Of a stretch of 39,396 bases of DNA, positions 12,901 to 34,143 are shown one piece after another. Source of the DNA: Nostoc sp. 106C (lineage in GTDB: Bacteria; Cyanobacteriota; Cyanobacteriia; Cyanobacteriales; Nostocaceae); contig NZ_MTAW01000139.1 of the NCBI RefSeq assembly GCF_002154725.1, positions 1 to 39,396 of the forward strand, written 5' to 3'. The notes beneath the pieces are model-generated. The model saw only the letters and a program-made list of their open reading frames with translations, made no database searches and was not told the DNA's origin. The translations under genes and the position numbers were made by a program. Each line of letters begins with the position of its first letter. Positions within the stretch are counted from its first letter, which is position 1.

Positions 12901-15557
12901 TTACCTACGGATTAATACTTTGTGGCGTAGTCGGAGACATTGAATCTGGCTATAAATTCGGCAAACTGGCTTTATGCTTGGTAGATCGTTATAACTTCAA
13001 AGAAGTAAAAGCTAAGATAATGATGGTATTTTATGGTGCTATCAAACATTTTAAAAAGCATACAAAGGAGACATTACAATACTTACTAGATGCTTACTCT
13101 ACAGGACTAGAAACTGGTGATTTAGAATACGCAGCTTTTGCCCTTTACAATTATTCTTCGTATTCCTATTTTATTGGCAGTGAACTGACGGGGCTGGAAT
13201 TGCAAATAGCAAGCTATGGCAATGCCATTAGTCAAATCAAGCAAGAAAGAGCTTTTTACTGGAATACTATTTATCACCAGACAGTGTTGAACTTGCTCGA
13301 ATCAGGGGAAAATCCTAATTGTTTAATCGGTAATGCATACAACGAAGAGAAAATACTACCGATTCATCTTGAGGCTAAGGATGGAAGTGGGCTGTTATAT
13401 CTATATTTCTGCAAGCTTCAGCTAAGTTACTTGTTTCAAGACTTTACACAAGCAGTTAAAAATGCCGCATTGGCAGAAAAGTATTTATATGCTGGTGTAG
13501 GAAATCTCGTTTTTCCTCTGTTCCATTTTTACGACTCTCTCGCACAACTCGCGGTGTATTCTGATGCTGGCGAGACTCAACAAAAGTACATTATTGATAG
13601 AGTACAAGCTAATCAGGAAAAGATGCATCATTGGGCAAATAATGCTCCAATGAATTATTTACACAAATATTATTTAGTAGAGGCAGAAATAAATCGGGTT
13701 TTTGGTAAATATCTCGAAGCAATGGACTGTTATGAGCGCGCCATCACTCTTGCTAGAGAAAATGAGTATCTTAATGAAGAAGCTCTTGCTAACGAACTGG
13801 CTACTCGCTTTTATCTAGAATGGAGCAAACACAAGATAGCCCAAACTTACTTTACTGATGCATATTACTGTTATTTGCGGTGGGGAGCAAAAGCCAAAGT
13901 TGACGATTTGGAAAAACGGTATCCCCAATTACTGGCTCCGATTCTCAAGGAAGACCAATTAAGTTTATATACCAGCGAAAAAAGTACTTCTTCTCATCAC
14001 ACCACTTTATCTACCCAAAGCAGTCACCAGACTTTAATTAGCTCTTGCACAAGTATTTCTGATTCTTTAGATTTGACTGCTGTAATTAGAGCCTCACAAG
14101 CACTCTCTGGAGAAATTGAACTGGAGCAATTGTTATCTACTTTAATGAAATTAGTGAGGGAAAATGCAGGAGCTTCTAAATGTGCTTTAATGCTAAATCC
14201 AGGGGATGATTTGGACTTAACCGTTACTGCTATTAGTTCTAATTCTGCATTAGCATCCACTTACACAGAATTCCCTGCAATTAACCTTTCTTGTAGCTAT
14301 GACCTTCCGATTACTTTGATTAATTATGTCAAACGCACAAAGGAAAGATTTGTTGTTGATAATGCTAAAGTGGAAGGATTTTTAGCAAATGATCGCTACA
14401 TTCTTCGTGATCGTCCCAAGAGTCTGTTATGTATACCGATTATCAATCAGGGAAAATTTCTTGGTATATTGTATCTTGAAAATAATCTTACGACAGGAGC
14501 GTTTACACGCGATCGCCTAGAACTTTTACAAGTAATTACTACCCAAGCAGCAATCTCTCTAGAGAATGCTATCCTCTATAAAGATTTAGCACAAGCAAAA
14601 GAAGGCTTGGAGGAATATAGCCATACTTTAGAAGAGAAAGTTGAACGCAGAACTCATGAACTTAATGAGAATAATCAGCGCTTAAAACAGGCAATAGTGG
14701 ATTTGCAAAACGCCCAAACGAAACTAATTCAAAGTGAAAAAATGTCTAGTTTGGGGCAAATGATAGCGGGAATTGCCCATGAAATCAATAACCCCATCAA
14801 TTTTATTCATGGCAATATTACTCATACACAAGAGTACGTGCAAGATCTATTAGATTTGATTGCTACTTATCAGCAAGAATATCCCAATCCCTCTAATCAA
14901 GTTGCTGAAAAATCTGAAAAAATAGACTTAGATTTTTTAGTGCAAGACTTGCCAAAAGTATTGGATTCTATGAAGCTAGGAACATCGCGTATCCGGCATA
15001 TTGTTTTAGGATTACGCAACTTTTCACGCTTAGATGAAGCTGACATGAAGCCTGTAGATATTCATGAGGGCATCGACAATACTTTAATGATCTTGCAACA
15101 CAAACTTAAACTAAATAATGAGCGTCCTGAGATAAAAGTCATCAAAGAATATGGAGATCTGCCAGAGGTGGCTTGTTATGCTGGCCAGTTAAACCAGATG
15201 TTTATGAACATCTTGAGTAATGCGATTGATGCGTTAGATGATAACAATAAAGAATGGAGTACGGAAAATGAGAACAACCATCAAATTCAAGTTCCTAAAA
15301 TTCGCATTTTAACTGAGTTAGTAGACAAAAATACTATCAGGATTCGCATTGCCGATAATGGTCTTGGTATGAATGCTGAGGTGCAACAAAAAATCTTTGA
15401 CCCATTTTTTACCACCAAGCCAGTTGGGAGTGGTACAGGGCTAGGATTATCGATTAGCTATCAAATTGTTGTAGATAAACATAAGGGAAAGTTGTTCTGT
15501 GAGTCTACACCAGGAAAGGGAACTGAGTTTGTGATTGAAATTCCAATCAGACAGTGA
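9936..15557 (+). CDS. Ser/Thr kinase - AAA ATPase - GAF - histidine kinase (multi-kinase sensor)
   Basis: A 1873-residue cytosolic signalling protein. Residues ~14-275 are a Ser/Thr protein kinase: Lys43 in SVIIKLM, the catalytic loop HKDIKPAN with Asp141, and D160-F161-S162 in place of DFG. Next is an AAA/STAND-like ATPase with P-loop GSSGIGKT (341-348) and a FLDDLQW Walker B, then a long helical TPR-like region (~700-1350), a GAF domain (~1376-1545), a coiled coil, and a histidine kinase with H-box [10 protein letters not shown] (His1615), N-box [24 protein letters not shown] and GTGLGLSIS. This order is a known cyanobacterial/myxobacterial multi-kinase type. The histidine-kinase end closely resembles that of the kinase at 36196, including the long insert after the H-box. 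No receiver is fused, so phosphotransfer must go to a separate regulator. The ATG at 9936 lies just before the kinase fold; nearby upstream ATGs are out of frame. Confidence 0.93.
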
Positions 15558-15674: not shown

Positions 15675-17069
15675 CTATAGGGTTGGTGTAGTTACCATAG
15701 CAGTTGGAGACTGTTGATGCATACGCTGCCCTGTAATTACTATCTTGACTCCATTACCCGGCCTAATCACAACACCTCTACGTTGAGGTCTCTCAGAGCG
15801 TTGGTCTGCCAATCCCAGTTGATACTTAGAGAGAATAGTTGCCAATACTAGCTTCATTTCAAATGTAGCTAAAGCCTGACCAATACAACCACGGGCACCA
15901 CCACCAAAAGGCAGAAATTCATAGGGAGAAAATTGCCGTTCCAGAAAACGCTCTGGTCTAAATTCCTCAGGCTGCGGATATAAATCCGTACGCCGATGTG
16001 CTAGATAAATACATCCTACGACTATTGTATCAGGCTCTAACTGATGCCCCAGTAGTTCAACTGGTTCTTGCACTACTCGAGGGAGGGTCATAACCGACAC
16101 TGGATAAATCCGCATTGCTTCATTACAGACAGCGGTCAGATAAGGCAACTGAAAAATTTTCATGGGATCTGGAGAATCACCCAAGCTATGCAGTTCTTGG
16201 AGAAGTTTTTCACTAATTTCTGGTTTTTTCAAAAGCCAATATAATCCCCAAGCCATTACTGTTGCCGTAGTTTCATGCCCAGAAATCATTAAATTAATCA
16301 ATTCATCATGCAACTCCCGATCTGTCATCTGCTTACCAGCTTCATCCCTTGCTAACATCAGCAAAGAAAGAATATCAATACGATCAGCAGCAAGATGCTT
16401 CCGGCGTTCAGCAATTTCTGCATCAAGCAATTCATCAACTTGCTCTCTTAAGCGCAGAAATTTCCCCCAAGGTGTCAAAGAACCTAAATCTCTTTGTAGA
16501 AAAGGAAAAAATAGAAAGCTAGAAATTAATGGAGAGCGAAACAACTCCATAACTAAGGTTGGTATTAAATGCTTGAGTTGTTGGCAACGTTCTCCTTCAT
16601 AAAAGCCAAAAACAGCCTGTAATATAACTTGTAAAGAAATCTCCTGCATTGTAGAAAGCGCAGAAAAAGGCTTGTTTAATGGTAACTGACTAAATATATT
16701 TTCTGTCAGATTGATAATTAGGTGACCGTAAGCTCGCATCCGTTCTCCATGAAAGGAGGGCATCAACAATTGTCGTCGTTGTTTATGGGACTCGCCATCC
16801 AACATCATGAGTGAATAGTCTCCCACTATGGGTTGCAAAATTCTATTCACTTCACTGGAGGCTACAAATGTGCTTCTATCGTTAGTTAAAATTTCTTTTA
16901 TTGCTTGGGGATGGTTCACAAATACTAAGGTGTCCCCAAAACCAATTACTTCACCAGTGAAAATATCAGGATATTCTTGAACAGCGTTTTCTATATACTT
17001 TACAGGATCAGCAATCCATTGAAGCTTTTGTAGAAAAGAGGGAGTTTTGAGGCGATTAGGTAGTTGCAT
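15675..17069 (-). CDS. Cytochrome P450, CYP110-like (copy 1)
   Basis: A 464-residue soluble-type P450 monooxygenase. The I-helix oxygen-activation motif is SGHETT (about 260), with Ser where Ala or Gly is usual. The K-helix ExxR is EAMR, the PERF motif is RPERFLER, and the heme loop is FGGGARGCIG with Cys395 as thiolate ligand. The N-terminal MQLPNRLKTPSFLQKLQW is typical of the cyanobacterial CYP110 group as I recall it. No redox partner gene is adjacent; ferredoxin would serve. The next gene upstream on the same strand, 179 bases away, encodes a UbiA-type membrane enzyme with terpene-cyclase-like motifs, so an isoprenoid or fatty-acid-derived substrate is plausible. A close paralogue lies at 32761-34143. 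Confidence 0.93.
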   Translation of the reverse strand: MQLPNRLKTPSFLQKLQWIADPVKYIENAVQEYPDIFTGEVIGFGDTLVFVNHPQAIKEILTNDRSTFVASSEVNRILQPIVGDYSLMMLDGESHKQRRQLLMPSFHGERMRAYGHLIINLTENIFSQLPLNKPFSALSTMQEISLQVILQAVFGFYEGERCQQLKHLIPTLVMELFRSPLISSFLFFPFLQRDLGSLTPWGKFLRLREQVDELLDAEIAERRKHLAADRIDILSLLMLARDEAGKQMTDRELHDELINLMISGHETTATVMAWGLYWLLKKPEISEKLLQELHSLGDSPDPMKIFQLPYLTAVCNEAMRIYPVSVMTLPRVVQEPVELLGHQLEPDTIVVGCIYLAHRRTDLYPQPEEFRPERFLERQFSPYEFLPFGGGARGCIGQALATFEMKLVLATILSKYQLGLADQRSERPQRRGVVIRPGNGVKIVITGQRMHQQSPTAMVTTPTL

Positions 17070-21936: not shown

Positions 21937-23106
21937 CTAATTCCCCAATATCGTTTGCAAGCCTTGAACTAATCGTGCGATACCTTCTGTTGCTGTCTTT
22001 TGTTGCAGCGCACCGTAAGCAACCCGCAGATAACATCCATCTTCCATGCCAAAGGTAGTACCGGGAATAACTGCTACTTGATGTTCCTGAATTAATCTTT
22101 TAACTAACTCAAAGGCATTGATTTGGGTATGAACTCTTAGGAAAAAATAGAAAGCGCCATCAGCAGGGGTAATAGTACACAAGCCTTGTAAGCGATTGAG
22201 AGATTCCAGCACCAATTGTCGCACTTGAGCGATCGCACCAATATTTTCTTTTAAATACTCGTCTTTTGCTTGCAATGCCCCCAAAGCTGCATACTGAGAA
22301 ATGACTGGCGCACAAATCAAAATCGTATCTTGGACTTTTTTGACAGCAACTAGCAGGTGTTGGGGAATCACCATATAACCTATACGCCAACTAGCAAAAC
22401 CATAAGCTTTAGAAAGGCTGTAAAGAGAAATGGTGTAGTCGCTGCTGCCAGCAAAACTACCAGGAGAAACGTGCTTAACTCCGTTATAGGTAAAGTATTC
22501 ATAGGCTTCATCGCTAATGTGATAAATGCCGCGAGTGCCACAAATTTGATTAACTTCCCGCAATGCTGTTTCCGAATACACCACGCCTGTGGGATTATTG
22601 GGGGAAATTGTGACTATAGCCCGTGTTTTGGGAGTAATTGCTTGGGCGATCGCTTCAACACGCAGTTGATAATTTTCATCCGTTTCTACTAACACCGGAC
22701 GACAACCCGCCATTGTAATGGCCATTTCATGATTGAAATAGTAGGGCTTATTCAAAATAATTTCGTCGCCTGGGCTGGTGATTGCCAGAATGGCGTTCAT
22801 AAACCCCATGTTGCTCCCAGCCGTGACAACTATGCAGTTTTCTTCGTTAATTTCAATGCTATTAAAAGCTTGTAACTTTGTGGCTAATGTTGCTACTAAC
22901 GGCGGAATTCCCTCAACTGCTTTATATAAATTGTTAGTAGGTTCCGCGAGGAATTTGGCTAAAAACTCTATTGCTGACTGTGGAGGACTGTAAGAAACCA
23001 CACCTTGTCCTAAAGAAATGGTTCCGGGGGAGTTGTTAATCAGTTCCCCAACAACAGGAATGATTGGCGATTGTACCGCCTGCATACGAGATGTTAGGGG
23101 TTCCAT
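21937..23106 (-). CDS. PLP-dependent class I/II aminotransferase
   Basis: A 389-residue fold-type I aminotransferase. SLSKAYGFASWRIGYM contains the Schiff-base lysine (Lys233), with NNPTGVVYSE and the Asp of ISDEAYEYF for cofactor binding, and an Arg (CYLRVAYG) near the C-terminus for the substrate carboxylate. It belongs to the aspartate/aromatic aminotransferase-like group; the donor and acceptor cannot be fixed from sequence. The start ATG lies 9 bases after the stop of the BMC shell gene, so the two are very likely co-transcribed. Confidence 0.92.
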   Translation of the reverse strand: MEPLTSRMQAVQSPIIPVVGELINNSPGTISLGQGVVSYSPPQSAIEFLAKFLAEPTNNLYKAVEGIPPLVATLATKLQAFNSIEINEENCIVVTAGSNMGFMNAILAITSPGDEIILNKPYYFNHEMAITMAGCRPVLVETDENYQLRVEAIAQAITPKTRAIVTISPNNPTGVVYSETALREVNQICGTRGIYHISDEAYEYFTYNGVKHVSPGSFAGSSDYTISLYSLSKAYGFASWRIGYMVIPQHLLVAVKKVQDTILICAPVISQYAALGALQAKDEYLKENIGAIAQVRQLVLESLNRLQGLCTITPADGAFYFFLRVHTQINAFELVKRLIQEHQVAVIPGTTFGMEDGCYLRVAYGALQQKTATEGIARLVQGLQTILGN

Positions 23107-23115
23107 AGGAATTTT

Positions 23116-23454
23116 TTAAGCTGATAGAGGCGGTGGAAACCGGATATCGGCACTGAACTGCTCAACATTGGTACTGCGATGAATCGGTAACACATATTCT
23201 AAATTTTCATGGGGACGCGGAATTATATGATGCGAAAGCACCTCGCCACCATTAACTCGCCTCACCGCCTCTAAACCTGCGGACACGGCAACATTTACCT
23301 CACCCACTTGTCCTCGAATTAACACTGAAATCCGCCCCAAATCAGTATTTTCATAACCAACAAGAGTGATACGGGCAGCTTTACACATAGCATCTCCGGC
23401 TTCCACTGCTGCGGGAATGCCATAAACTTCAATCATGCCAAGTGCCAGTGTCAT
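23116..23454 (-). CDS. ccmK: CcmK-type carboxysome shell hexamer protein (satellite paralogue)
   Basis: A 112-residue single-BMC-domain protein that should form the hexagonal tiles of the beta-carboxysome shell. [30 protein letters not shown], the [20 protein letters not shown] segment and EYVLPIHRS follow CcmK1/CcmK2 closely. The pore loop differs: where CcmK1/2 have K-I-G-S at positions 36-39, this protein has N-T-D-L, so the pore loses its Lys and Ser and gains an Asp. No other ccm gene is present, so it is a satellite copy; CcmK3/4/5/6 classes exist outside the main locus and I cannot say which this is. The extended tail (FPPPLSA) is also unlike CcmK2. It is probably co-transcribed with the aminotransferase. 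Confidence 0.9.
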
Positions 23455-23580
23455 ACTGCTAACAAGTAATACAATCTAAATCCTATCACCTGTTGGTTAA
23501 GCTAATGTGCGTCCAATTTGCACTGTGTGTTAGGTTCTTTACACCTAAAAATCGTGGCGATCGCAGGTATTTTACTTTAG

Positions 23581-23970
23581 CTATAGTTCGTATACAAGAC
23601 CTAGAACTTCTTGCGATTTTTCCAATACTTCATCGGGGTCAAAAGGCTTAGTTAAGTATAGATTTGCGCCTACTTCTTTACCTTTTTGTTGGTCAAACTC
23701 CTGCCCTTTAGCCGTCAGCATAATGATGTAAATATCTTTCATACCCAGAACATTTTTCACTTCATTACAAACATCAAATCCACTGAGCTTTGGCATCATT
23801 ACATCTAAAAATACGAGATTAGGTTGTTCAGATTTAATTTTTTCCAAGCCTACCTCTCCGTTCTCGGCAACTAGTAACTCTACTCCTGCATCTTCCAATT
23901 CTTCCAGGGTTTGCTCTAGCAACAACCGGATATGTACTTCATCATCCACAATTAAAATTTTTTTACTCAT
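23581..23970 (-). CDS. Single-domain response regulator (CheY-like receiver)
   Basis: A 129-residue receiver domain with no output domain. The acidic pair Asp9-Asp10, phosphoacceptor Asp56 (VFLDVMMP), the Thr of MLTAKG and Lys108 (LTKPF) are all present, so it should be phosphorylatable. It lies 173 bases downstream of the VOC gene, on the same strand as a long signalling operon with a hybrid histidine kinase, and is a natural candidate for the phosphate acceptor of that kinase or of the receiver-less kinases in this window. It may have its own promoter in the AT-rich gap. Confidence 0.93.
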   Translation of the reverse strand: MSKKILIVDDEVHIRLLLEQTLEELEDAGVELLVAENGEVGLEKIKSEQPNLVFLDVMMPKLSGFDVCNEVKNVLGMKDIYIIMLTAKGQEFDQQKGKEVGANLYLTKPFDPDEVLEKSQEVLGLVYEL

Positions 23971-24143
23971 AATTACCCCTATTTTTGGTTATATAATATA
24001 TAACTTTCTATTTTTTTATCAGCTATAGACGACATACAAAACAGATGAATATGCCAAGATTGCTCAGATATCTGAAAATATGGATGACATTTTTATTTTA
24101 AATAAAATTAGGCTAATACTATGGCATCTGAGCTATTGTTCTG

Positions 24144-24545
24144 TCAATACATCATCTCTGAATTTAAATAATATTTAAATTCTAATAAATTATTAGACGG
24201 GTCTTTTAAGAAGAATGTTATATGTTCTTCTGGTTTGTTTGCAAACCTTACCATGAGTTTCTGGAAGAGTACAATCTGTCGTTGCTCAACCAAATTAAGC
24301 AAATATTCAAAATCACTTTTGTTTTTAAAAGTAATGCCAAAATGTCGAGGATAAATTTGGGGATTTTGGTCGATTTTTTCTGGAGAAAGGTGACAAACTA
24401 ATTGCTCGCCAAAAAAATTGAACGTGGCGCGATCTGAATACCTACGAGCCAACTGACAATCGAGTTTATTTACATAAAAATCTACTGTCTCTTCAAGTTC
24501 TTTACAAGGAATTGCTAAATGAAAGACATTCTCTGGACTTTTCAT
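24144..24545 (-). CDS. VOC (glyoxalase/bleomycin-resistance fold) protein
   Basis: A 133-residue vicinal-oxygen-chelate protein with one beta-alpha-beta-beta-beta module pair. His9 (FHLAIP), His68 (RHFGITF) and Glu122 (NLLEFKYY) sit where VOC enzymes bind their divalent metal. DPSNNLLEFKYY is the family's C-terminal signature. Its ATG overlaps the stop of the ComA-like gene by four bases (ATGA), so it is translationally coupled and should act in the same pathway. I infer a role on a small hydroxy- or keto-acid-like compound made or sensed by that system; the substrate is unknown. Confidence 0.88.
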   Translation of the reverse strand: MKSPENVFHLAIPCKELEETVDFYVNKLDCQLARRYSDRATFNFFGEQLVCHLSPEKIDQNPQIYPRHFGITFKNKSDFEYLLNLVEQRQIVLFQKLMVRFANKPEEHITFFLKDPSNNLLEFKYYLNSEMMY

Positions 24546-25327
24546 ACTAAAGCGCCTTCAAATAAAAGTAATGTATCCGACCTCAATCCTAATCTAAGAC
24601 TTTCTAAACTCAGAACCTGATCGAAGCTAATATTAGCTAAATTTACATTTGCTCCTACTTTAGTAATAAAGTATGTTTGTAAATCTTTAGTTGGAGCTTC
24701 AAAAATAAGATTTTCTGCGTTAATCCCAGAATTAAGAATCTCAGATATAATTCCATACCGCAATTCCCCGTTTTTTTGGCATATACCAGATCGGCCACTT
24801 TCTCTGGCTTCGGTAATTACTTTGGTTGCACCCGCTTCTAAATCTTGCCAGATATATTCCACCCAATTATTTGCAGATAATTCTTGAGATTTTTCTGCAT
24901 CTTTGTAACCCACTTCACTAAAGATAGTAAACTCTAGGGATAACTCCGCAATATATTTAGCTTTTTCACGGTTGCTGAGGTCGATAGTGCCATTAGAGAT
25001 CTCCATATGAGTGCAGCCAAAATACTTATGATACTCATAAAAATTATTCAGCTTGTCTTGAGTCAGACATTTTTCAAAGAAAGTTCCGCCAAAATAAAAT
25101 TGCACTCCATTTAATTGCAGAAATTCAATTTTTTGATAAATATCTTTTGTGATTAAAGAACTACACCAGCCAAATTTGACAATATCAATGAACTCTCTAT
25201 GGCTATTAATCACATCAGCAAAATATCCAGTGGGAACACCATTATCAATTAAAATTGTTAGTCCAGCTTGTCTATTCTTTTTTGTGCGTAATGGGAGATC
25301 AAGAAAAATATTCATCTTAAAATACAC
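24542..25327 (-). CDS. comA: Phosphosulfolactate synthase (ComA) family protein
   Basis: A 261-residue TIM-barrel protein of the ComA family. Known members add sulfite to phosphoenolpyruvate to give (R)-phosphosulfolactate, the first step to coenzyme M in methanogens and to sulfolactate in some bacteria. Signature blocks are KFGWCSS (51-57), FGGTFFE, MEISNGTIDLS (108-118), SEVGYKD, ITEARESGR (171-179), IFEAPTK (208-214), NVNLANISFD and LRLGLRSDT. Compared with my memory of the archaeal enzyme, EISDG has become EISNG and FGWGTS has become FGWCSS, so activity could differ. The gene sits between a GAF sensor (6-base gap) and a VOC protein (4-base overlap) in a signalling operon. It is not related to competence ComA. 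Confidence 0.88.
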   Translation of the reverse strand: MYFKMNIFLDLPLRTKKNRQAGLTILIDNGVPTGYFADVINSHREFIDIVKFGWCSSLITKDIYQKIEFLQLNGVQFYFGGTFFEKCLTQDKLNNFYEYHKYFGCTHMEISNGTIDLSNREKAKYIAELSLEFTIFSEVGYKDAEKSQELSANNWVEYIWQDLEAGATKVITEARESGRSGICQKNGELRYGIISEILNSGINAENLIFEAPTKDLQTYFITKVGANVNLANISFDQVLSLESLRLGLRSDTLLLFEGALV

Positions 25328-25333
25328 CTTAAT

Positions 25334-26146
25334 TTAAAAATATCGTTCCATTTTGCTAATAACTTGTTGTTCTTGCAGCATCTTTTCATGGAGAATAGCA
25401 TTAGCGATCGCTGATGTTACTTGAGTAGCTAAAGCCTTGATTATTTTGAGGTCTGCTGCTTTGTAAAAAGTAGATTTTTCACTGCTAATACTAATAACAC
25501 CAATCGCTTTATCTTTACTCAGTAGTGGCACACAAATTAGCGAGTTAAGGGGGTCACTTATCTGAACAAATCTCGGATCGGAAAGGACATCATTGACAAT
25601 TTCGCCTCTACCTTCAAGAAGTACATGACCGATAATTCCAGTGATTGGTATTAAAGTTGATTTGTGGTGATATTGCTGACCGAATGCAGAAATAATTTCT
25701 AATTGCCGTTTGTCTCGATCGAGGAGCATAATTGCTCCACTAGTCGCAGCAATTCTCTTTTTGATTTCTTCAATGATAATCTGGGTAACTTCTTGTAATT
25801 TTAAATTAGCAGTTAGTTTATCAGAAATACTATAGATGAGATTAATCTCTTGATATTTATCCAGTGCTTCTTTAGCCAGTTTTTTGCGCTCTATTTCCCG
25901 ATTTGCTAAATAGGTTAACAGGGATGCAATTGCAGTAGCCCTAAAATCTCCTTGAACCCAACCAATAACTAAATCTTCTATTTCAATGGGTATTGATACT
26001 GAAAAATTTTCTTGTTTTTTACCTAGTAAAAATTGCTTACTATCATCATATATACCTACAGTGTTGTTCACAATATTTAACATCTCTTGGACAATAAATA
26101 ATATTTCTGTTTGAGATAGTAACTTTTTTATATTCAAAGTTTTCAT
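25334..26146 (-). CDS. GAF sensor protein with the operon's shared N-terminal module
   Basis: A 270-residue cytosolic protein without an output domain. Residues 1-75 form a small PAS-like module (VGIYDDSKQFLLGKK, then IPIEIEDLVIGWVQG), 76-110 a signalling helix (IERKKLAKEALDKYQEINLI), and 110-260 a GAF domain. The same order and wording occur in the SpoIIE phosphatase at the head of the operon, so the two are paralogues and this one lacks the phosphatase. Its ATG directly abuts the stop of the hybrid kinase (TAA then ATG), implying translational coupling. It may sense the metabolite handled by the ComA-like enzyme or modulate the kinase. No chromophore-type Cys is seen in the GAF. Confidence 0.85.
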   Translation of the reverse strand: MKTLNIKKLLSQTEILFIVQEMLNIVNNTVGIYDDSKQFLLGKKQENFSVSIPIEIEDLVIGWVQGDFRATAIASLLTYLANREIERKKLAKEALDKYQEINLIYSISDKLTANLKLQEVTQIIIEEIKKRIAATSGAIMLLDRDKRQLEIISAFGQQYHHKSTLIPITGIIGHVLLEGRGEIVNDVLSDPRFVQISDPLNSLICVPLLSKDKAIGVISISSEKSTFYKAADLKIIKALATQVTSAIANAILHEKMLQEQQVISKMERYF

Positions 26147-29100
26147 TTACTTTTTATCCTCCAAGAGTATAAAAAATAGATTTTCTAAACCCTTCTCAAA
26201 TCGTAAGGTTTTGACCAGACTATGACGAGACGAAATTAAGGAATCTACAATAATTAAATCAGGTCTGTCAGACATGGCTTTTTCAATAGAATCTTGATAA
26301 TTGAGAGCTTCTACAATACTGAAACCTTTTGTCCGTAAGGCTTCAGCTAAGGTTTTGCTGGTAGGAACATTTTCATCTACAATTAGAACTCGCTTTTGCG
26401 AGCGTCCAAAAGACATCAAGATAGCTACTTCCTTCAGCAGTTCTTCAGCATTAATAGGTTTATTTAAAAATCGGTCTACCCCAAGTGCATAACCACGATT
26501 TTCGTCTTCTACAACTGACAAAATAATAATGGGAATATGCATAGTATGCGGGTCATTTTTGAGGACTGCGGCTGTATCAAACCCGTTCATTCTTGGCATC
26601 ATCACGTCCAGTACGATCAAATCTGGAAGCTCTTGTTTGACTAATTCAATAGCCTCTAAACCATCGTTGGCTTCGACAATTTTGTAGCCTTCGGAACTTA
26701 AATATTGTTTAGCAAGTTCTCGCATTGCAGCTTCATCATCAACAATCAGAATAGTTTTCTGCTCATTGTCAGAAACATTACTAGGAAGAGACGTTGGGAA
26801 ATTTAATTGCTGAATTAAACTTTCTAAATCGATAGTTTTGACACCCCTGATTGGTGCAAGGGGAATGGGTAAGCTAAATGAAAAATTACTTCCTTTACCG
26901 ATTTCGCTGTCAACCCAAATTCGCCCACTATGATGTTCGATAATTTCTTTAGAAATGGGTAGTCCTAAACCAGTACCTTGGGGTTTATCCGTGAGAGTAT
27001 CACCTACTTGTTTAAATTTTTCAAAGACTTTGGCTTGGTCTTCTTTTGCAATACCAATACCACTATCGATAATGCTGATAATTATTTCTTGCCCTATAAG
27101 TTTTGCTTGGCAGATAATAAAACCTGTGGTTGTAAATTTGACAGCATTAGAGATGAGATTAATGACTACTTGAATCAGACGCTCGCGATCGCCAATAATT
27201 TCTGGTAATTCTGGTTCTATCTCTGGGATTAGTTGTAAACCTTTTTGTTCAAACAGAGCAGTGGTAGCAGCAAACGCTTGGTCTAGCATCTTTTGTACAC
27301 AGAGAGATTGCATATTCCACTGCACCTTCCCGGCCTCGATTTTTGCTAAGTCGAGGATGTCGTTAATCAGGGATTTTAGCCGCTCACCTTCTGAAATGAT
27401 GATGTTGACGTTTTCTGACACCTGCCGCATGGAACGCTGTATCTTTTTATCGTCGGCAGATACTAAAGGAAATAAAGTTTCGTCGAGTTTTTTCTTAATT
27501 AATTTGGCAAAGCCAATTACAGAGGTGAGGGGAGTCCTCAATTCATGGGAGACGGTAGAAATAAAGTCCGTCTTCATCCGATCTACTTCTTTCTCAAAAG
27601 TAATATCTCGGATTAAAATTACTGAACCAATGTAGCTGCTGTCACCGTTTTGTGGCGAGTCTTTGAGGATAGCTGTGGCTACAGCTTTACCAGTGCGTCC
27701 TTGAGCCAGTTCTACCTCAGCAGTGAACATTTCCTGACACTTGCTACTAGTTAAGGCTACGAGTTTAGCGATCGCACCATTAAACAGTGTTTGTGCGTCA
27801 ACACCAACTAAATTTTCGTCTGCTACCTCCAAAAAGCTGGTGAGCGCCGGGTTGTACTGAGCAATCTTGCCATCGGGGTCTACGACTAGCAAAGCATCTC
27901 CCAGGCTTTTAATAATAGCGCTCACGTACCCTAAGGTATCTTGTAATTGGGTTGTGGTAGCCGTTAATTGTTCGGCTTGGTTACTGACGATCTCAAACTG
28001 TTCTTGAGTTTGGCTATAAAGTTGTGCCTGTTTGATAGCGATCGCTACTTGGTCGGCTACAACTTCCAACAGTTCAACTTCCCAATCCTGCCACACCCAA
28101 GCATGAGCGCGAGAGCAGATCAAATAACCGTGGTGTAGATTGTCAGGAATTAATACAGGTAAAGCCAGACAACTACCGATTTGCGCTTGCTGGCTAGCAG
28201 AGTCAACATTTACCTTGCTGCAACGCACGATCTGCTTTTGAGCGAGGCGATCAGCCAGGTCGCCAAAGTATTCCAAACTCAAAATTCCGGTGATTGCTGC
28301 CAGATTTGGCAAACGATGTTCGCAGGTGACTTCCAGACTGCGGTTTTCTCGGTTATACCAACCAAACATAACGCGGTTGAGATCAAGGAGATTGGCAACT
28401 TCATTCACCGTAGTTTGCAAGGTGGTTTGAAGATCCAAAGACTCCCGAATGCGAGCTGTGATGCGATTCACCAGCGCCTCCTGCTCGGCTTGGGCACGGG
28501 TGCGCTCAAAGGCTTTGATTTGGCGTGTGGCTGTAATGGTGGCTAATACCAACAAACCTCCCACTACTACCGCCAGCAGGTTCAGAGCATAAAGATTTTC
28601 TTCTAGCTTCTCACGAGGAATCACTAATGCCACCGACCACTTGGCATGTTTGAGAGGTGCATAGGCTACGTAAACCGAGCTTTTCTGTCCCTGCAAATGC
28701 ACCAGTTGAGTTCCGTGGTTGCCATTAACCATATTTTGGGCAATTTTTGCTAACACTGGATCTGGTGCATTAAAGAAGCTTTTTTTTTGGTCGATAGTTT
28801 TATCCTGGTGAGCGATGGGAAATCCTTGGGAATCCAGGGCAAAGGCGTAACTACCTTGGCTAAAGTGAGTAGCGGCGATTACTTGAGAAATTCGGTCTAC
28901 GGCCACTTGACCAGAGAGTTCGCCAATCGGTTTGGGGTTTTGGTCAGCAGCAGTAGAAAAGCCTAATGCTTGCAAACTACGAGCACGAATCGTAGCAGCT
29001 TTGGCATCCAGTGGAGTGTGCCGCAAAGGTGACACTGACCAAATCGGTACGGCAATGTTGACATGGCGGATACCTGTAGAGCGAGAAATAACAGGATCGT

Positions 29101-29560
29101 CTACAAGGCTTTTTCCTGTTATTGCTCGTTGAAAGTGGCGGCGATCGCTAATATTTTTATCCTTCACGAAACCAGCTTTAGTGGTGTAGTAAGAGCCATC
29201 TGGTAAAGCCAGCAAAAATGAATTCATATCTGGCAAGTGGTTGACTTCCAGTTGCAAATACGGCTCTGCTTGTGACCAATCTAAACTGCGTACCGCTTGA
29301 CTATTTGCCACAAGTTCTACTTGCGCTAACAGCGTTGCTAGCCACTGATCGATTTCATATCCTGCCTTCTGTACGCGCAACAAGGCATTTTCTTGCAAGC
29401 CTTCTAATATGAGTTTCCGTACAAACCAGTAGCTGGCTACAGCAGTTGTTCCTACTACTAAAATAGTCCCAGCAATTAATAACAAGGAAACATAGCGGCG
29501 AGACTGCCACGGGTATTTATATCTGTGCTGCCAAAATTTCAGTTTGCACCAATTAGACAT
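26147..29560 (-). CDS. Membrane hybrid histidine kinase (Cache-GAF-PAS-HK-REC-partial REC)
   Basis: A 1137-residue sensor kinase. Transmembrane helix 1 lies at about 25-48, a periplasmic double-Cache-like sensor follows (with DRRHFQRAITG and HVNIAVPIWSV), and helix 2 lies near 325-345. Then come a GAF domain (~380-515), a PAS domain (~545-640), a dimerisation domain with H-box VSHELRTPLTS (His672), and an ATPase domain with DSGIGI and GTGLGLPIS. A full receiver (about 936-1050) has its Asp near 985 in VLDVMMP and Lys in NKPIN. A second receiver (1056-1137) keeps DE and VDSL but ends right after its fourth strand, lacking the conserved Lys and the last helix. Cache domains usually bind small acids or amino acids outside the membrane, in line with the AEC permease encoded just upstream. 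Confidence 0.93.
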   Translation of the reverse strand: MSNWCKLKFWQHRYKYPWQSRRYVSLLLIAGTILVVGTTAVASYWFVRKLILEGLQENALLRVQKAGYEIDQWLATLLAQVELVANSQAVRSLDWSQAEPYLQLEVNHLPDMNSFLLALPDGSYYTTKAGFVKDKNISDRRHFQRAITGKSLVDDPVISRSTGIRHVNIAVPIWSVSPLRHTPLDAKAATIRARSLQALGFSTAADQNPKPIGELSGQVAVDRISQVIAATHFSQGSYAFALDSQGFPIAHQDKTIDQKKSFFNAPDPVLAKIAQNMVNGNHGTQLVHLQGQKSSVYVAYAPLKHAKWSVALVIPREKLEENLYALNLLAVVVGGLLVLATITATRQIKAFERTRAQAEQEALVNRITARIRESLDLQTTLQTTVNEVANLLDLNRVMFGWYNRENRSLEVTCEHRLPNLAAITGILSLEYFGDLADRLAQKQIVRCSKVNVDSASQQAQIGSCLALPVLIPDNLHHGYLICSRAHAWVWQDWEVELLEVVADQVAIAIKQAQLYSQTQEQFEIVSNQAEQLTATTTQLQDTLGYVSAIIKSLGDALLVVDPDGKIAQYNPALTSFLEVADENLVGVDAQTLFNGAIAKLVALTSSKCQEMFTAEVELAQGRTGKAVATAILKDSPQNGDSSYIGSVILIRDITFEKEVDRMKTDFISTVSHELRTPLTSVIGFAKLIKKKLDETLFPLVSADDKKIQRSMRQVSENVNIIISEGERLKSLINDILDLAKIEAGKVQWNMQSLCVQKMLDQAFAATTALFEQKGLQLIPEIEPELPEIIGDRERLIQVVINLISNAVKFTTTGFIICQAKLIGQEIIISIIDSGIGIAKEDQAKVFEKFKQVGDTLTDKPQGTGLGLPISKEIIEHHSGRIWVDSEIGKGSNFSFSLPIPLAPIRGVKTIDLESLIQQLNFPTSLPSNVSDNEQKTILIVDDEAAMRELAKQYLSSEGYKIVEANDGLEAIELVKQELPDLIVLDVMMPRMNGFDTAAVLKNDPHTMHIPIIILSVVEDENRGYALGVDRFLNKPINAEELLKEVAILMSFGRSQKRVLIVDENVPTSKTLAEALRTKGFSIVEALNYQDSIEKAMSDRPDLIIVDSLISSRHSLVKTLRFEKGLENLFFILLEDKK

Positions 29561-29601
29561 AATTTTGATACCCTTTTGACTCTCAGAATAAAAATTTAAA
29601 A

Positions 29602-30744
29602 CTAACTATCGCTGTTGCCAGGTTTTAATATATTTTTATGCTCAAAAATCAGGGATTTTGATTTAACAAATTCCCAGCCAAATTGTAAAGATACAGCAGC
29701 TATCAAAACTAAACCTCCAACAAGACATAAATGTTGCGGAGTAGTAAAGAAGCTGCCTTGGCATAAAACAAATAAAATGATGCAGATCGAGAAGGGAATC
29801 GACATCGCTAATAAACCCAAGGCAAATTCTGTATCAAAAGTTGTCGTGCGGCGGAGGTTTTCGCCTTGCATCTGCTGGATTTCTTGGGTGTTGATTTGAG
29901 AAGCATAAATTAGAGGCCAGACGCTTAAACCCGCTTGTGGCAAAATAGCTATGAGCAGGAGATTAATTCCAGAACTGGAGTGAATAAGTGCGATCGCCAC
30001 TGCACTAAACCAAAATCCCAACCCCGATCGCAGCAACAATACAGTCCCGATTGTTTTTAGTTCCAAACCCCTAAGATTCAGAGAAACACCTACAAAAAAG
30101 AGAATCAGTGGAGTACCACAAGCTGCCAATTTTTTCACTGCCTCTAGAGCCAGAGGTGGCACTGCATTATTGAGCTTAAACATTACCAAGAATAATCCTA
30201 AAATAATAGCTATATTCATCGGTTCGTTTAATAACCCCAAAATTACTTTGTGCCATCGAGTTGTTTGTTTTGTAGACGCAGCCGTTCTTTGATAAAACCA
30301 ATACATAGCTAAAGCATAAAGACCAATCAGCACAAACATTTTGTTACCAATATCTGCTACTGCTACTTCTGCTAAACCTGTTTTTCCTAAAAATTCTTCT
30401 ACAAATGGGTAAGTGGTTAACCCAGTACCTAAAGATGGAAAAATCAAAATTAGTGAACGTGCTTTGCGTTGGTCTTTACCCGGAATAATTAGACGTGCAA
30501 GTAGAAATCCAGAAACTAAGAAATAAATATTAATTGCTAACGCTAATAATGTTAAGTAAAGTAGATTTATTTTAGTATTAATATCTAAAATTGATAAAAA
30601 AATCATTCCTGGCAGTGCTGCATTCACAATAAATGTTTTTAAAGCTCCAACAGCAGCAGCCTCTTGAAACTTTTTTTGCAGACAATAGCCAGCAGCAATT
30701 AATAATAGTAAGGGAAATGCTTTTTGCAAGCCCAAGTCATTCAT
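29602..30744 (-). CDS. AEC-family (auxin efflux carrier / malate-type) permease
   Basis: A 380-residue membrane protein with about ten hydrophobic helices in two repeats. Recognisable AEC landmarks are LKTFIVNAALPGMIF in the first half, NEPMNIAIILGLF in the middle and PLILFFVGVSLN at the start of the second half. Family members move organic acids such as malate, malonate or auxin-like acids across the cytoplasmic membrane. The start codon overlaps the end of the SpoIIE phosphatase gene by eight bases, so it belongs to that operon. I infer transport of a carboxylate or sulfonate that the Cache sensor detects or the ComA-like enzyme makes. The C-terminal ~30 residues are hydrophilic. Confidence 0.9.
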   Translation of the reverse strand: MNDLGLQKAFPLLLLIAAGYCLQKKFQEAAAVGALKTFIVNAALPGMIFLSILDINTKINLLYLTLLALAINIYFLVSGFLLARLIIPGKDQRKARSLILIFPSLGTGLTTYPFVEEFLGKTGLAEVAVADIGNKMFVLIGLYALAMYWFYQRTAASTKQTTRWHKVILGLLNEPMNIAIILGLFLVMFKLNNAVPPLALEAVKKLAACGTPLILFFVGVSLNLRGLELKTIGTVLLLRSGLGFWFSAVAIALIHSSSGINLLLIAILPQAGLSVWPLIYASQINTQEIQQMQGENLRRTTTFDTEFALGLLAMSIPFSICIILFVLCQGSFFTTPQHLCLVGGLVLIAAVSLQFGWEFVKSKSLIFEHKNILKPGNSDS

Positions 30745-32344
30745 TAGTTAAATATTCTCTATGTACTGCTAGCATCGTAATGTCATCAAATTGGTCTGCT
30801 TCATCAATATGAGCTATTAAATTACCTTGAATCTCTTCTAGCAATTTATTAAATTTCAGCGCTGGTCTATCTAATATCGACAACAATTTATTCTCTGTGA
30901 AAAAATCTCCTTGAGGGTTGCGTGCTTCTGGCACACCATCCGTATATCCAAAAAGAATATCGCCCGCTTCTAGGTGAATCTGCTCCATTTTAAATTTCAT
31001 ATTCGGCATAAAACCAACTGCTGGACCAGTTGGTTTTAGACGTTGTTTCACACCTTTTGTATCAATGACTAATAGAGATTCATGTCCTCCATTGACATAA
31101 TTAAACAGCCCTGTATTGATGTCTAAAATGCCAAAAAATAGCGTGGCAAACATATTTAAATTACTATGATTTTGGGCAACATAATTATTAGTCATTTCTA
31201 CTGCTTTTAAAGGATTGCTAGTATCATAGTTACTAGCTAAATGCTGATAATCAAAATTGCGATGAGTGTTTGACTCCTGAGGATGATGACAATCACTACT
31301 GAGATATGTTTGACCAGAAAATATCCGAATCAAGCTGCGGAATAGCGCCATAAACAGTGCCGAACCTACACCTTTATCGCAGACATCAGCAATTACTAAA
31401 CCCAAGTGGTTATTAGGAAGTAAGAAAGCATCATAAAAATCACCTGCAACTTGACGAGCAGGGGCAAAAACTACCGCTAAATTCCATCCGGGAATCTCTG
31501 GTAATCGCTCCGGTAGAAAATCTTTCTGCATTTGCTGGCCTTTTTGCAGCTCACTGCGAGCGATCGCTTCTTTAATCTGATTTTTATGGCGAATTGCATT
31601 TTCAATTGCAGCAGCAGCTTGTGAAGCTAATGTGGTAAGTAATTTTAGATCTTCTGATGTATATTCAGCAAATTGCTTACTGCTCAGTTCGATTGCACCA
31701 ATCACCTCATTTCTAATTTTCAGGGGAGCGCAAATTAGAGAACTGATTTGAGTTTCTCTGTTAACATACCTAGGATCGGACAATACATCATTGACGATTT
31801 CTGCCCTTCCTGTATGTACGACGCTACCGACAATGCCTTCCTCAGACTTTATGCTTGTTTGCGGTTTATAGCGCGTTCCCAATGTGAAAACTATGTCCAG
31901 ATGCTTTGTGTCTCTATTCAGTAATATTAGTGAGGCATCTGTTGCTTTGATAAGTTTTTGCGCTTCTTCAAATACTAATCTCGCGACGGTTTGAATATCC
32001 AGACTTCCAGATAATTCTTCAGAAAGGTTATAAAGAAGGCTAATTTCTCGATATTTATCTAGAAGTTCACTTGTAAGGGTTTTTTTCTCAATCTCTTGAG
32101 TTGCTAAATGAACGAGTAAAGATGCTACCAAAACAGCATTTTCGCTACCCCTTACTGCTCCAATAACTTCTTGTGCGACTTCTATAGGATATAAAAATGT
32201 ATGCTTTTCGCTAATTTCTCCCAGCAGTAATCTGCTAGAATGATCCAAAATTGCTATGGGTTTTTCTAAAACATTGATAGTGCTTTTAACAATAGCAGCC
32301 ACTGTTTCTTTCGCAAGAAGCTTTTTAAGGCTGATTTGAATCAT
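30737..32344 (-). CDS. GAF - PP2C (SpoIIE/RsbU) phosphatase
   Basis: A 535-residue regulator. It has an N-terminal PAS-like module (1-80, AILDHSSRLLLGEISEK), a signalling helix (KTLTSELLDKYREISLLYN), a GAF domain (~115-260), a linker with KGQQMQKDFLPE, and a SpoIIE-type Ser/Thr phosphatase (~285-535). Metal-binding acids are visible in VAGDFYDAF, IADVCDKGVG, YTDGVPEA and FDDITML. Such enzymes dephosphorylate anti-sigma-antagonist (STAS) proteins in partner-switching cascades; no STAS or anti-sigma gene lies in the window. It is the first gene of the operon and overlaps the AEC permease by eight bases. The GAF lacks the Cys motif of bilin-binding domains. Confidence 0.92.
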   Translation of the reverse strand: MIQISLKKLLAKETVAAIVKSTINVLEKPIAILDHSSRLLLGEISEKHTFLYPIEVAQEVIGAVRGSENAVLVASLLVHLATQEIEKKTLTSELLDKYREISLLYNLSEELSGSLDIQTVARLVFEEAQKLIKATDASLILLNRDTKHLDIVFTLGTRYKPQTSIKSEEGIVGSVVHTGRAEIVNDVLSDPRYVNRETQISSLICAPLKIRNEVIGAIELSSKQFAEYTSEDLKLLTTLASQAAAAIENAIRHKNQIKEAIARSELQKGQQMQKDFLPERLPEIPGWNLAVVFAPARQVAGDFYDAFLLPNNHLGLVIADVCDKGVGSALFMALFRSLIRIFSGQTYLSSDCHHPQESNTHRNFDYQHLASNYDTSNPLKAVEMTNNYVAQNHSNLNMFATLFFGILDINTGLFNYVNGGHESLLVIDTKGVKQRLKPTGPAVGFMPNMKFKMEQIHLEAGDILFGYTDGVPEARNPQGDFFTENKLLSILDRPALKFNKLLEEIQGNLIAHIDEADQFDDITMLAVHREYLTNE

Positions 32345-32760
32345 ATCTGGTTTTTGAAAATGCTAATATTATCTGTATAACTCCTAATAATTGATTGGTA
32401 ATCGGTAATATTACGACAGATGAATCAATTAGATAGGATAATTTAAGCTCGCAGCGATCGCCCACATTGCAGAAAATGCGCGTAAATGCGGTGCTGACCA
32501 AGTAGTTGGTATCAAAACTTATGTTTATCAGTTGGGTAGTGGCATTATTGAGTTTATGGCGATCGGTACTGCTGTGAAAAAAATGCCTGGGGTAAGCACA
32601 CACTCTCCTATGCTCATACCTCAGGCAATCATTCAAGATAAAGACTACTTTTGTGAATACCGCAGAAGCTACATTAAGGACGCAATTAAATCAAATGGCA
32701 AGATAATAGTCATTTGTCATTTGTCAAGAGTTAGGGATTCACCCCTGGCTCCATCTTTCC
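32345..32760. other. Intergenic region between the signalling operon and the second P450
   Basis: This should contain the operon promoter near 32345-32440 on the minus strand. Most of the rest is the remnant of a YbjQ-like gene on the plus strand. GTCATTTGTCATTTGTCA near 32709-32726 is a short tandem motif common between cyanobacterial genes. Confidence 0.4.
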
Positions 32761-32777
32761 TCAAGTACTTGCCATAG
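32442..32777 (+). pseudogene. C-terminal remnant of a YbjQ/UPF0145-like protein
   Basis: Directly after an in-frame TAA the plus strand reads FKLAAIAHIAENARKCGADQ, then VVGIKTYVYQLGSGIIEFMA and IGTAVKK. This is the helix-strand pattern ENARxxGADxVVG...AxGTAV of the C-terminal half of YbjQ-type (UPF0145, putative heavy-metal-binding) proteins. The N-terminal half is missing and no ATG or ribosome binding site precedes it. After about 32660 the frame drifts into unrelated sequence and runs into the 3' end of the convergent P450 gene. I read it as a decayed gene fragment; an internal TTG (32532) start is unlikely. Confidence 0.6.
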
Positions 32778-34143
32778 TCAGTTGAGATTCTTGACGCGCA
32801 CGCCTTCCTGTAATTACCATTTTGACACCATTGGCAGGCGCAAGAGTCACACCTCGACGCTTGGGTTGCTCTGGTTGATTATCAACTAGCGCCAGATCAT
32901 AACCTGAGAGGATTTTCGCTAACACTAGCTTCATTTCAAACTGTGCCAAAGCCTCACCAATACAGCGACGTGAACCACCGCCAAAGGGGATAAATTCGTA
33001 GGCAGAAAATTGGCGTTCTAGAAAGCGTTCTGGCTTAAATTGCTTTGGTTCTGGATATAAATCTTTACGCTGATGAACCAGATACATACAGCCGACAACT
33101 GTTGTCTCAGGCTCTAACAAATATCCAAGTAATTCCACAGGTTCTTGCACTACCCTAGCAAAGGTCAACATTGCAACTGGGTAAATCCGCAAGGTTTCAT
33201 TACAAACAGCCGTGAGATACGGTAGGCGGAATATACTCATGGGGTCTGGATTGTCTCCCAAGGTATCGAGTTCGCGGAGCAGTTTTTCGCGAACTTCCGG
33301 CTGGTGATGAGTCCAATATAATGCCCAAGCCATTGCTGTTGCCGTGGTTTCATGTCCAGCAAATAGCAGAGTCATCAACTCATCCCGTAACTCTTGATCG
33401 GTCATCGGCTCACCTTCTTCATCTCTAGCTGACATCAGTAACGAGAGAATATCAATACCATTTGAATTAGGTTTCTCTCGTCGTTCAGCAATTTCAGCGT
33501 AAAGCAATTTATCCATTTGCTCGCGATCGCGCACAAATTTGCCCCAAGGACTCCAAGCTCCTAGATCCTGTTGCAGAAAGGGAAAAAAGAGGAAGCTAGA
33601 AGTCAAAGGTGAGCGAAATAGATCCGACATCAACGCCATTAGATGCTTGAGTTGTTGGCAACGTTCTCCCTGATACAAGCCAAATACAGCTTCTAAAATT
33701 ACCTGTAAGGAAATATCCTGCATCACAGTTCGAGCTGAGAACGGCTGGTTAGTTGGTAACTGACTCAACACTTTTTCAGTGATCTTAGAGATGATTTGTC
33801 CATAGGAACGCATCCGATCGCCATGAAATGAAGGCATTACCATCTGTCGCCGCCGCTTGTGGCGATCGCCATCCAGCATAATCACTGAATAGTCGCCGAT
33901 TAGCGGTTGCAAAATCTTGTTTTTTGTACTTAAAGCAGCAAATTTCTTGCGGTCATTTATTAAAATTTCTTGAATAGCTTGGGGATGGTTTACGAATACC
34001 CAAGGGTCCTGAGAACTCAGAAGAACAGTTGTGAAAATGTCAGGATATTGTTGCGCTGCTTTTTCCATATATCCAATAGGATCAGCAACCCATTGGAGCC
34101 TTTGGAGAATAGATGGAGTTTTTAGAAGATTTGGTAATTGCAT
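32761..34143 (-). CDS. Cytochrome P450, CYP110-like (copy 2)
   Basis: A 460-residue P450, clearly paralogous to the enzyme at 15675-17069: the same N-terminus (MQLPNLLKTPSILQRLQWVA), the same LMLDGxxHKxRRQ and PSFHGxRMR region, and alignable with hardly a gap. The I-helix is AGHETT, the canonical form, where copy 1 has SGHETT. ExxR is ETLR, the PERF region is KPERFLER, and the heme loop is FGGGSRRCIG with Cys394. The function is an NADPH/ferredoxin-dependent hydroxylation of an unknown, probably lipid or isoprenoid, substrate. It stands alone between the signalling operon and an exonuclease gene; a duplication followed by separation is likely. Confidence 0.93.
   Translation of the reverse strand: MQLPNLLKTPSILQRLQWVADPIGYMEKAAQQYPDIFTTVLLSSQDPWVFVNHPQAIQEILINDRKKFAALSTKNKILQPLIGDYSVIMLDGDRHKRRRQMVMPSFHGDRMRSYGQIISKITEKVLSQLPTNQPFSARTVMQDISLQVILEAVFGLYQGERCQQLKHLMALMSDLFRSPLTSSFLFFPFLQQDLGAWSPWGKFVRDREQMDKLLYAEIAERREKPNSNGIDILSLLMSARDEEGEPMTDQELRDELMTLLFAGHETTATAMAWALYWTHHQPEVREKLLRELDTLGDNPDPMSIFRLPYLTAVCNETLRIYPVAMLTFARVVQEPVELLGYLLEPETTVVGCMYLVHQRKDLYPEPKQFKPERFLERQFSAYEFIPFGGGSRRCIGEALAQFEMKLVLAKILSGYDLALVDNQPEQPKRRGVTLAPANGVKMVITGRRARQESQLTMAST

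Follow-up and report, generated by a model that had tools for sequence, protein, structure and literature searches.

A conserved ComA-VOC gene pair within a strain-specific block of permease and signalling genes in Nostoc sp. 106C

Phosphosulfolactate synthase (ComA) has been described in coenzyme M synthesis and in connection with spore sulfolactate. The occurrence of a ComA-family gene in the cyanobacterium Nostoc sp. 106C, within a tight row of sensor genes, raises the question of which neighbours this enzyme acts with and what they make. The stretch of DNA analysed, hereafter the window, comprises 39,396 nt (GCF_002154725.1, contig NZ_MTAW01000139.1, positions 1-39,396). Its real content is a conserved ComA-VOC pair lying in a strain-specific block, and a conserved sensor system is absent.

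Gene layout and the strain-specific block

A first-pass annotation had read six genes of the window as one sensor operon wired to ComA. The six minus-strand open reading frames are all present according to the ORF list and its coordinates (Table 1), and the junctions it described are exact: running from the phosphatase gene to the VOC gene, these are an 8-base overlap, a 41-base gap, a direct abutment, a 6-base gap, and a 4-base ATGA overlap. Each of the domain identities it gave to the six genes is backed by Pfam. The 6-base gap presupposes the annotated GTG start of ComA. An ATG at 25315 would give 18 bases instead, and appears to be the likelier start because it matches the N-terminus of the B. 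subtilis ComA. The block holds a seventh gene, for a stand-alone response regulator, which is also missing from the relatives. The GAF protein and the N-terminal half of the SpoIIE protein share 40% identity over 268 aa.

Table 1. Genes of the block and extent of the block in the window
Feature	Positions	Strand	Basis
GAF-SpoIIE (PP2C-type) phosphatase	30737-32344	-	Pfam GAF and SpoIIE
AEC-type (Mem_trans) permease	29602-30744	-	PF03547 (Mem_trans), 35.2 bits (cut-off 25.7); sole match in 208 family genomes
Hybrid kinase, dCache-GAF-(weak PAS)-HisKA-HATPase-REC-REC	26147-29560	-	Pfam dCache_1, GAF, HisKA, HATPase and two Response_reg stretches
GAF-domain protein	25334-26146	-	Pfam GAF; paralogous to the SpoIIE protein's N-terminal half
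ComA-family phosphosulfolactate synthase gene	24542-25327	-	PF02679, 268.3 bits (cut-off 25.2); annotated start GTG
VOC/glyoxalase-fold partner	24144-24545	-	Pfam Glyoxalase, 39.4 bits (cut-off 20.6); 4-base overlap with ComA
Stand-alone response regulator	23581-23970	-	Pfam; within the block absent from the empty site of relatives
Block missing in 7/7 same-genus genomes	23499-32755, approximate		Ends judged by eye from sequences

The 12.8-kb neighbourhood was used as a query against the seven same-genus relatives. All of them contain the flanking exonuclease gene, as well as the BMC-domain and aminotransferase genes that border the block (window 22000-23455). The flanking P450 gene was kept in six of them, in which the P450 and BMC stretches are separated by just 99-229 bp; in G012, the remaining genome, about 300 bp separate the matches to the exonuclease and BMC genes. 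No block DNA aligned at this site in any of the seven genomes, except for one 41-base match in L140. Therefore, about 9.3 kb, from the response regulator through the SpoIIE gene, are private to the Nostoc sp. 106C genome.

Gain of the block, in one step or several, fits best, because among the family genomes ComA was found only here and in one other genome, G082 (2 of 217), and the permease gene was absent from the other 207 searched. The repeat scan revealed no readable pair of insertion-sequence ends or target duplication at the block ends. Paralogous DNA of the kinase and response regulator occurs elsewhere in genomes of the genus (e.g., G012) at 65-71% identity, and so the sensor genes of the block look like ordinary cyanobacterial ones. 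No known RNA, riboswitches included, was matched by Rfam within the window. Promoter-like sites (54 versus 27.2 expected) and terminator-like sites (6 versus 7.9 expected) were regarded as uninformative.

Several other features of the window were observed. At the block edge, an 81-aa ORF (32532-32777, plus strand) resembles by eye the end of a YbjQ-type protein, and is perhaps a gene fragment derived from rearrangement. The P450 genes at 15675-17069 and 32761-34143 share 73% DNA identity along most of their length. A lone BMC shell-protein gene (23116-23454) directly precedes the aminotransferase gene, an order kept in all seven relatives. Further off, the window encodes a NACHT-type protein with an NNH5 domain (618-2189) and a 1873-aa kinase-AAA-GAF-histidine kinase protein (9936-15557).

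ComA and its conserved VOC partner

Sequence comparison supports a real ComA-family gene in the window. The closest PDB chain is that of B. subtilis (1u83, E 9.5e-89), with which the protein shares about 55% identity, on the same bacterial branch of the family. An alignment of 85 ComA rows, including those of M. jannaschii and the window, displayed 32 invariant columns, and the window protein retains 75 of the 101 columns common to the M. jannaschii and B. spizizenii enzymes. Among the invariant columns is K142, paired in the alignment with M. jannaschii K137 and presumably catalytic. Archaeal ComA, which serves coenzyme M synthesis (M. jannaschii, 1qwg), is of the same family, but the window protein scored 227 bits against the archaeal equivalog model TIGR03849, below the cut-off of 280. 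Coenzyme M synthesis was rejected as the purpose of this locus, as Pfam detected no other genes of that pathway in the window. Plasmid-borne ComA homologues of Xanthobacter Py2, Nocardioides JS614, and Mycolicibacterium NBB4 are tied to coenzyme M and alkene use, but are only 34-36% identical to the window protein.

In the ComA tree, the window sequence fell outside the main Bacillaceae group and, without starred support, within a group of 34 rows made up of Actinomycetota, Alicyclobacillus, and single members of other phyla. It had no supported sister, and the ComA of G082 was not one either. Labels mostly follow phyla, thus the tree itself gives no sign of frequent transfer, and we infer transfer of ComA from its patchy occurrence. 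Neither ComA nor VOC had a PHROGs match that would point to a phage origin. Across the phylum, ComA was detected in 4 of 386 sampled genomes, namely Nostoc sp. 106C and three small genomes of a single genus. The ComAs of this trio are distant (37-39% identity), and a VOC gene stands beside ComA in only one of them (locus L007). In two of these loci (L007 and L008) the divergent ComA lies, judging from translations by inspection, beside apparent cation-antiporter subunits, an ion channel, a binding protein, and a carboxylate symporter. G082 carries the ComA-VOC pair in a different setting, at 57% (ComA) and 65% (VOC) identity to the window.

The linkage between both genes extends far beyond Cyanobacteria. 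When 84,980 species' genomes were scanned with a three-row alignment, 314 relatives of ComA were recovered, and the best 80 of them were kept; an earlier scan of the same collection with a single protein had returned none. In 59 of these best 80 of 314 loci, ComA is followed immediately by a VOC gene in the same orientation, at 0-135 bp between the matched stretches. Counts describe those 80, which are rich in Bacillota (54): the arrangement was found in 34 of the 54 Bacillota loci, 17 of 18 from Actinomycetota, both from Campylobacterota, and one each from Nitrospirota, Cyanobacteriota, Pseudomonadota, Planctomycetota, Bacteroidota, and Saccharimonadota. These nine phyla are given as labelled in the database records, several of which are metagenome bins, where labelling errors are possible. 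ComA and VOC are thus a conserved gene pair. The first-pass annotation had listed the VOC protein as a member of the set with no role of its own; its membership holds, and it proves to be the conserved partner of ComA.

In the remaining 21 of the best 80 loci ComA has no VOC directly downstream, counting one (L064) in which a VOC gene lies 3.3 kb upstream. A VOC of the ComA-linked type was absent genome-wide from 19 of 20 searched genomes lacking it at the locus, two genomes having only matches of 22-24% identity; the exception (L097) encodes one at 63% identity on another contig. The B. subtilis group is among the ComA genomes devoid of this VOC. Mapping adjacent VOC presence on the ComA tree requires at least seven changes.

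The VOC protein of the window was assigned to the VOC superfamily by its Pfam match and by the beta-alpha-beta-beta-beta fold of its predicted structure (pLDDT 96.1). The nearest PDB entry, 3RRI from Alicyclobacillus acidocaldarius (59% identity, TM-score 0.95 to the model), falls into one family with the ComA-linked VOCs, and its title gives no function. Subsequent structures, at TM-scores of about 0.6-0.7, included FosA from rank 2, FosB from rank 13, and several unannotated VOC proteins. Fos enzymes are small metalloenzymes acting on a PEP-like phosphonate. FosA and FosB are the closest functionally named folds, yet they share only about 16-23% identity with the VOC protein, and the NCBIfam model Fos_GSH (FosA-type thiol transferases) scored 19.6 bits against a cut-off of 180, so that by NCBIfam it does not count as a Fos enzyme.

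Searching 148 genomes of the order with the window VOC detected ordinary VOCs in 138, Nostoc sp. 106C included, and none above 46% identity outside Nostoc sp. 106C. The 61 linked VOCs formed one clade (SH-aLRT 100, in a quick tree with few columns) apart from 11 ordinary cyanobacterial VOCs, a non-random set of the best-scoring matches in the order sample; the VOC of L007 was counted in neither group. A signature of seven residues (Y36, D38, R39, T41, C51, T72, and E106) was found in 61 of 61 linked VOCs versus none of the 11 ordinary ones, and the distant VOC of L007 retains five of the seven. Meanwhile, H9, H68, E122, R34, R67, R100, and K124 occur in linked and ordinary VOCs alike, and fit a metal site with an anionic substrate. 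Among linked rows, H9 and H68 are present in 61 of 61 and E122 in 59 of 61 (one gap, one X); by the superfamily pattern, these three would form a putative His-His-Glu metal site. Most residues of the presumed anionic site are likewise common to ordinary VOCs.

A proposed role for the pair

Based on these findings, we postulate that the ComA-VOC cassette makes phosphosulfolactate and processes it further, beside permease and signalling genes in the private block of about 9.3 kb, a reading we hold to be reasonably probable. ComA would most likely join sulfite to phosphoenolpyruvate, yielding (R)-2-phospho-3-sulfolactate, as its family membership and conserved residues suggest. The VOC protein, a putative metal-binding enzyme of Fos-like fold, most likely acts on the ComA product or on sulfolactate, considering its linkage and its conserved arginine-rich site. 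As for the AEC permease, its cargo may be that product or a carboxylate related to it. Tentatively, the signalling genes (GAF, Cache-kinase, SpoIIE, and response-regulator) probably either control the block or are simply carried with it.

Gene neighbourhoods place the pair in varied contexts. Within 9 kb of ComA, VOC is accompanied by ComB in 30 of 84 loci, by an AMP-binding ligase in 24, and by both in 2, and stands without either in 6; 12 further loci have ComB but no VOC, and 10 have none of the three genes. These loci are the best 80 of 314 plus L006-L009, and two of them (L006 and L035) are one region of G082. Within 7 kb, ComB was found in 44 of 83 loci and genes read as sulfate assimilation were recurrent: cysH in 26, sat in 19, and cysC in 19. 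Pfam confirmed ComB, AMP-binding, and Acyl_transf_3 on chosen members, while cysH, sat, cysC, and a permease of Bacilli were named by reading cluster representatives. The window has no ComB beside ComA, but two ComB-family genes, one of them strong, lie on other contigs of Nostoc sp. 106C; ComB homologues also occur in ComA-less cyanobacteria, S. elongatus among the controls.

The presence of a VOC partner beside ComA in nine phyla, with and without ComB, suggests that a sulfonate is produced, for which the literature searched describes no later steps. That search, in which subscription literature was thinly covered, returned no paper pairing phosphosulfolactate with the glyoxalase/VOC family. 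The closest known system is B. subtilis YitCD (ComB-ComA), which makes spore sulfolactate; it differs from the window in its ComB, and no VOC was found in the searched genomes of the B. subtilis group. Sulfolactate is reported from spores of this group (PMC517825); since its searched genomes lack the VOC, this enzyme is not required for making sulfolactate. More tentatively, the ComA-linked VOC clade might constitute a metalloenzyme family that has so far gone undescribed, with phosphosulfolactate or one of its derivatives as substrate. It would then define a widespread bacterial organosulfonate pathway distinct from the coenzyme M and spore sulfolactate routes, joined here to a permease and to sensors of its own. 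ComA and VOC are two small soluble proteins, hence this is directly testable in vitro.

Sensors, ligases, and other readings of the locus

The sensors were examined by searching the window proteins against the 84 ComA loci, with flanks of up to 8 kb (less at contig ends). No match to AEC, GAF, or SpoIIE was found in any of them, a set that takes in three loci of picocyanobacteria and 80 of other bacteria. Generic matches to the hybrid kinase occurred in six (L047, L049, L050, L079, L096, and L104), none of which are orthologues of the window gene set. The conserved six-gene sensor-ComA system thus fails, because the sensors do not accompany ComA homologues, the very outcome by which the first-pass annotation had proposed to judge its idea. 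Its broader claim that these genes belong together stands in part: they share operon-like spacing and a block lacking in all seven genus genomes, but they are not conserved with ComA elsewhere.

A dedicated seven-gene system, in which a sulfonate or carboxylate is sensed by the Cache kinase, GAF, and SpoIIE proteins, with ComA-VOC and an AEC exporter or importer under their control, is accordingly unlikely. The tight spacing and the confinement of all seven genes to one block that relatives lack speak for it, as do the by-inspection carboxylate symporter and binding protein beside ComA in L007 and L008, and the genes for a response regulator and a kinase that closely follow VOC in two Alicyclobacillus loci (L047 and L049). 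These are outweighed by the unmatched AEC, GAF, and SpoIIE proteins, and by G082, whose ComA-VOC locus holds no AEC, GAF, SpoIIE, or other block member. In addition, AEC homologues elsewhere in the order reach 50% identity at best and have unrelated neighbours in the three loci inspected. The permease itself scored 41.6 bits against the NCBIfam model 2a69, which requires 246. That it moves a sulfonate, or that the Cache domain senses one, remains inference.

Quite improbable is a pathway for natural products or surface decoration, in which an AMP-forming ligase, here supplied from another contig, activates a sulfonated acid that an acyltransferase attaches. In 26 of 84 loci, ComA-VOC has an AMP-binding ligase within 9 kb, and frequently Acyl_transf_3 as well, although this count includes G082 twice (L006 and L035) and a ligase at 6 kb in L087 that may be there by chance. 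A ligase-PCP-condensation gene lies downstream of ComA-VOC in G082, and contig C90 of Nostoc sp. 106C carries tandem AMP-ligase-PCP-thioesterase genes (L150, 3887-6592 and 7691-10339), 77% identical to each other and 64% to the G082 ligase (next best 32%). However, the window has neither ligase nor acyltransferase, and the tandem genes also occur in the relatives G017 and G018, which have no ComA, so they need not serve ComA. The natural-product link through C90 is thereby weakened to a lead only. As a separate observation, a four-gene cluster of ComA, VOC, AMP ligase, and Acyl_transf_3 recurs mostly in Actinomycetota (L041, L045, L060, L080, L098, L105, and others), and might serve to decorate a surface glycan or lipid with a sulfonated acid.

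A further reading is that ComA carries out ordinary phosphosulfolactate synthesis, with VOC as a passenger, amid a chance assembly of unrelated genes without common purpose. It agrees with the absence of VOC from B. subtilis-type ComA genomes and with the lack of conservation of the sensors, but is very unlikely, since adjacency in nine phyla and a VOC signature specific to the linkage are hard to obtain by chance.
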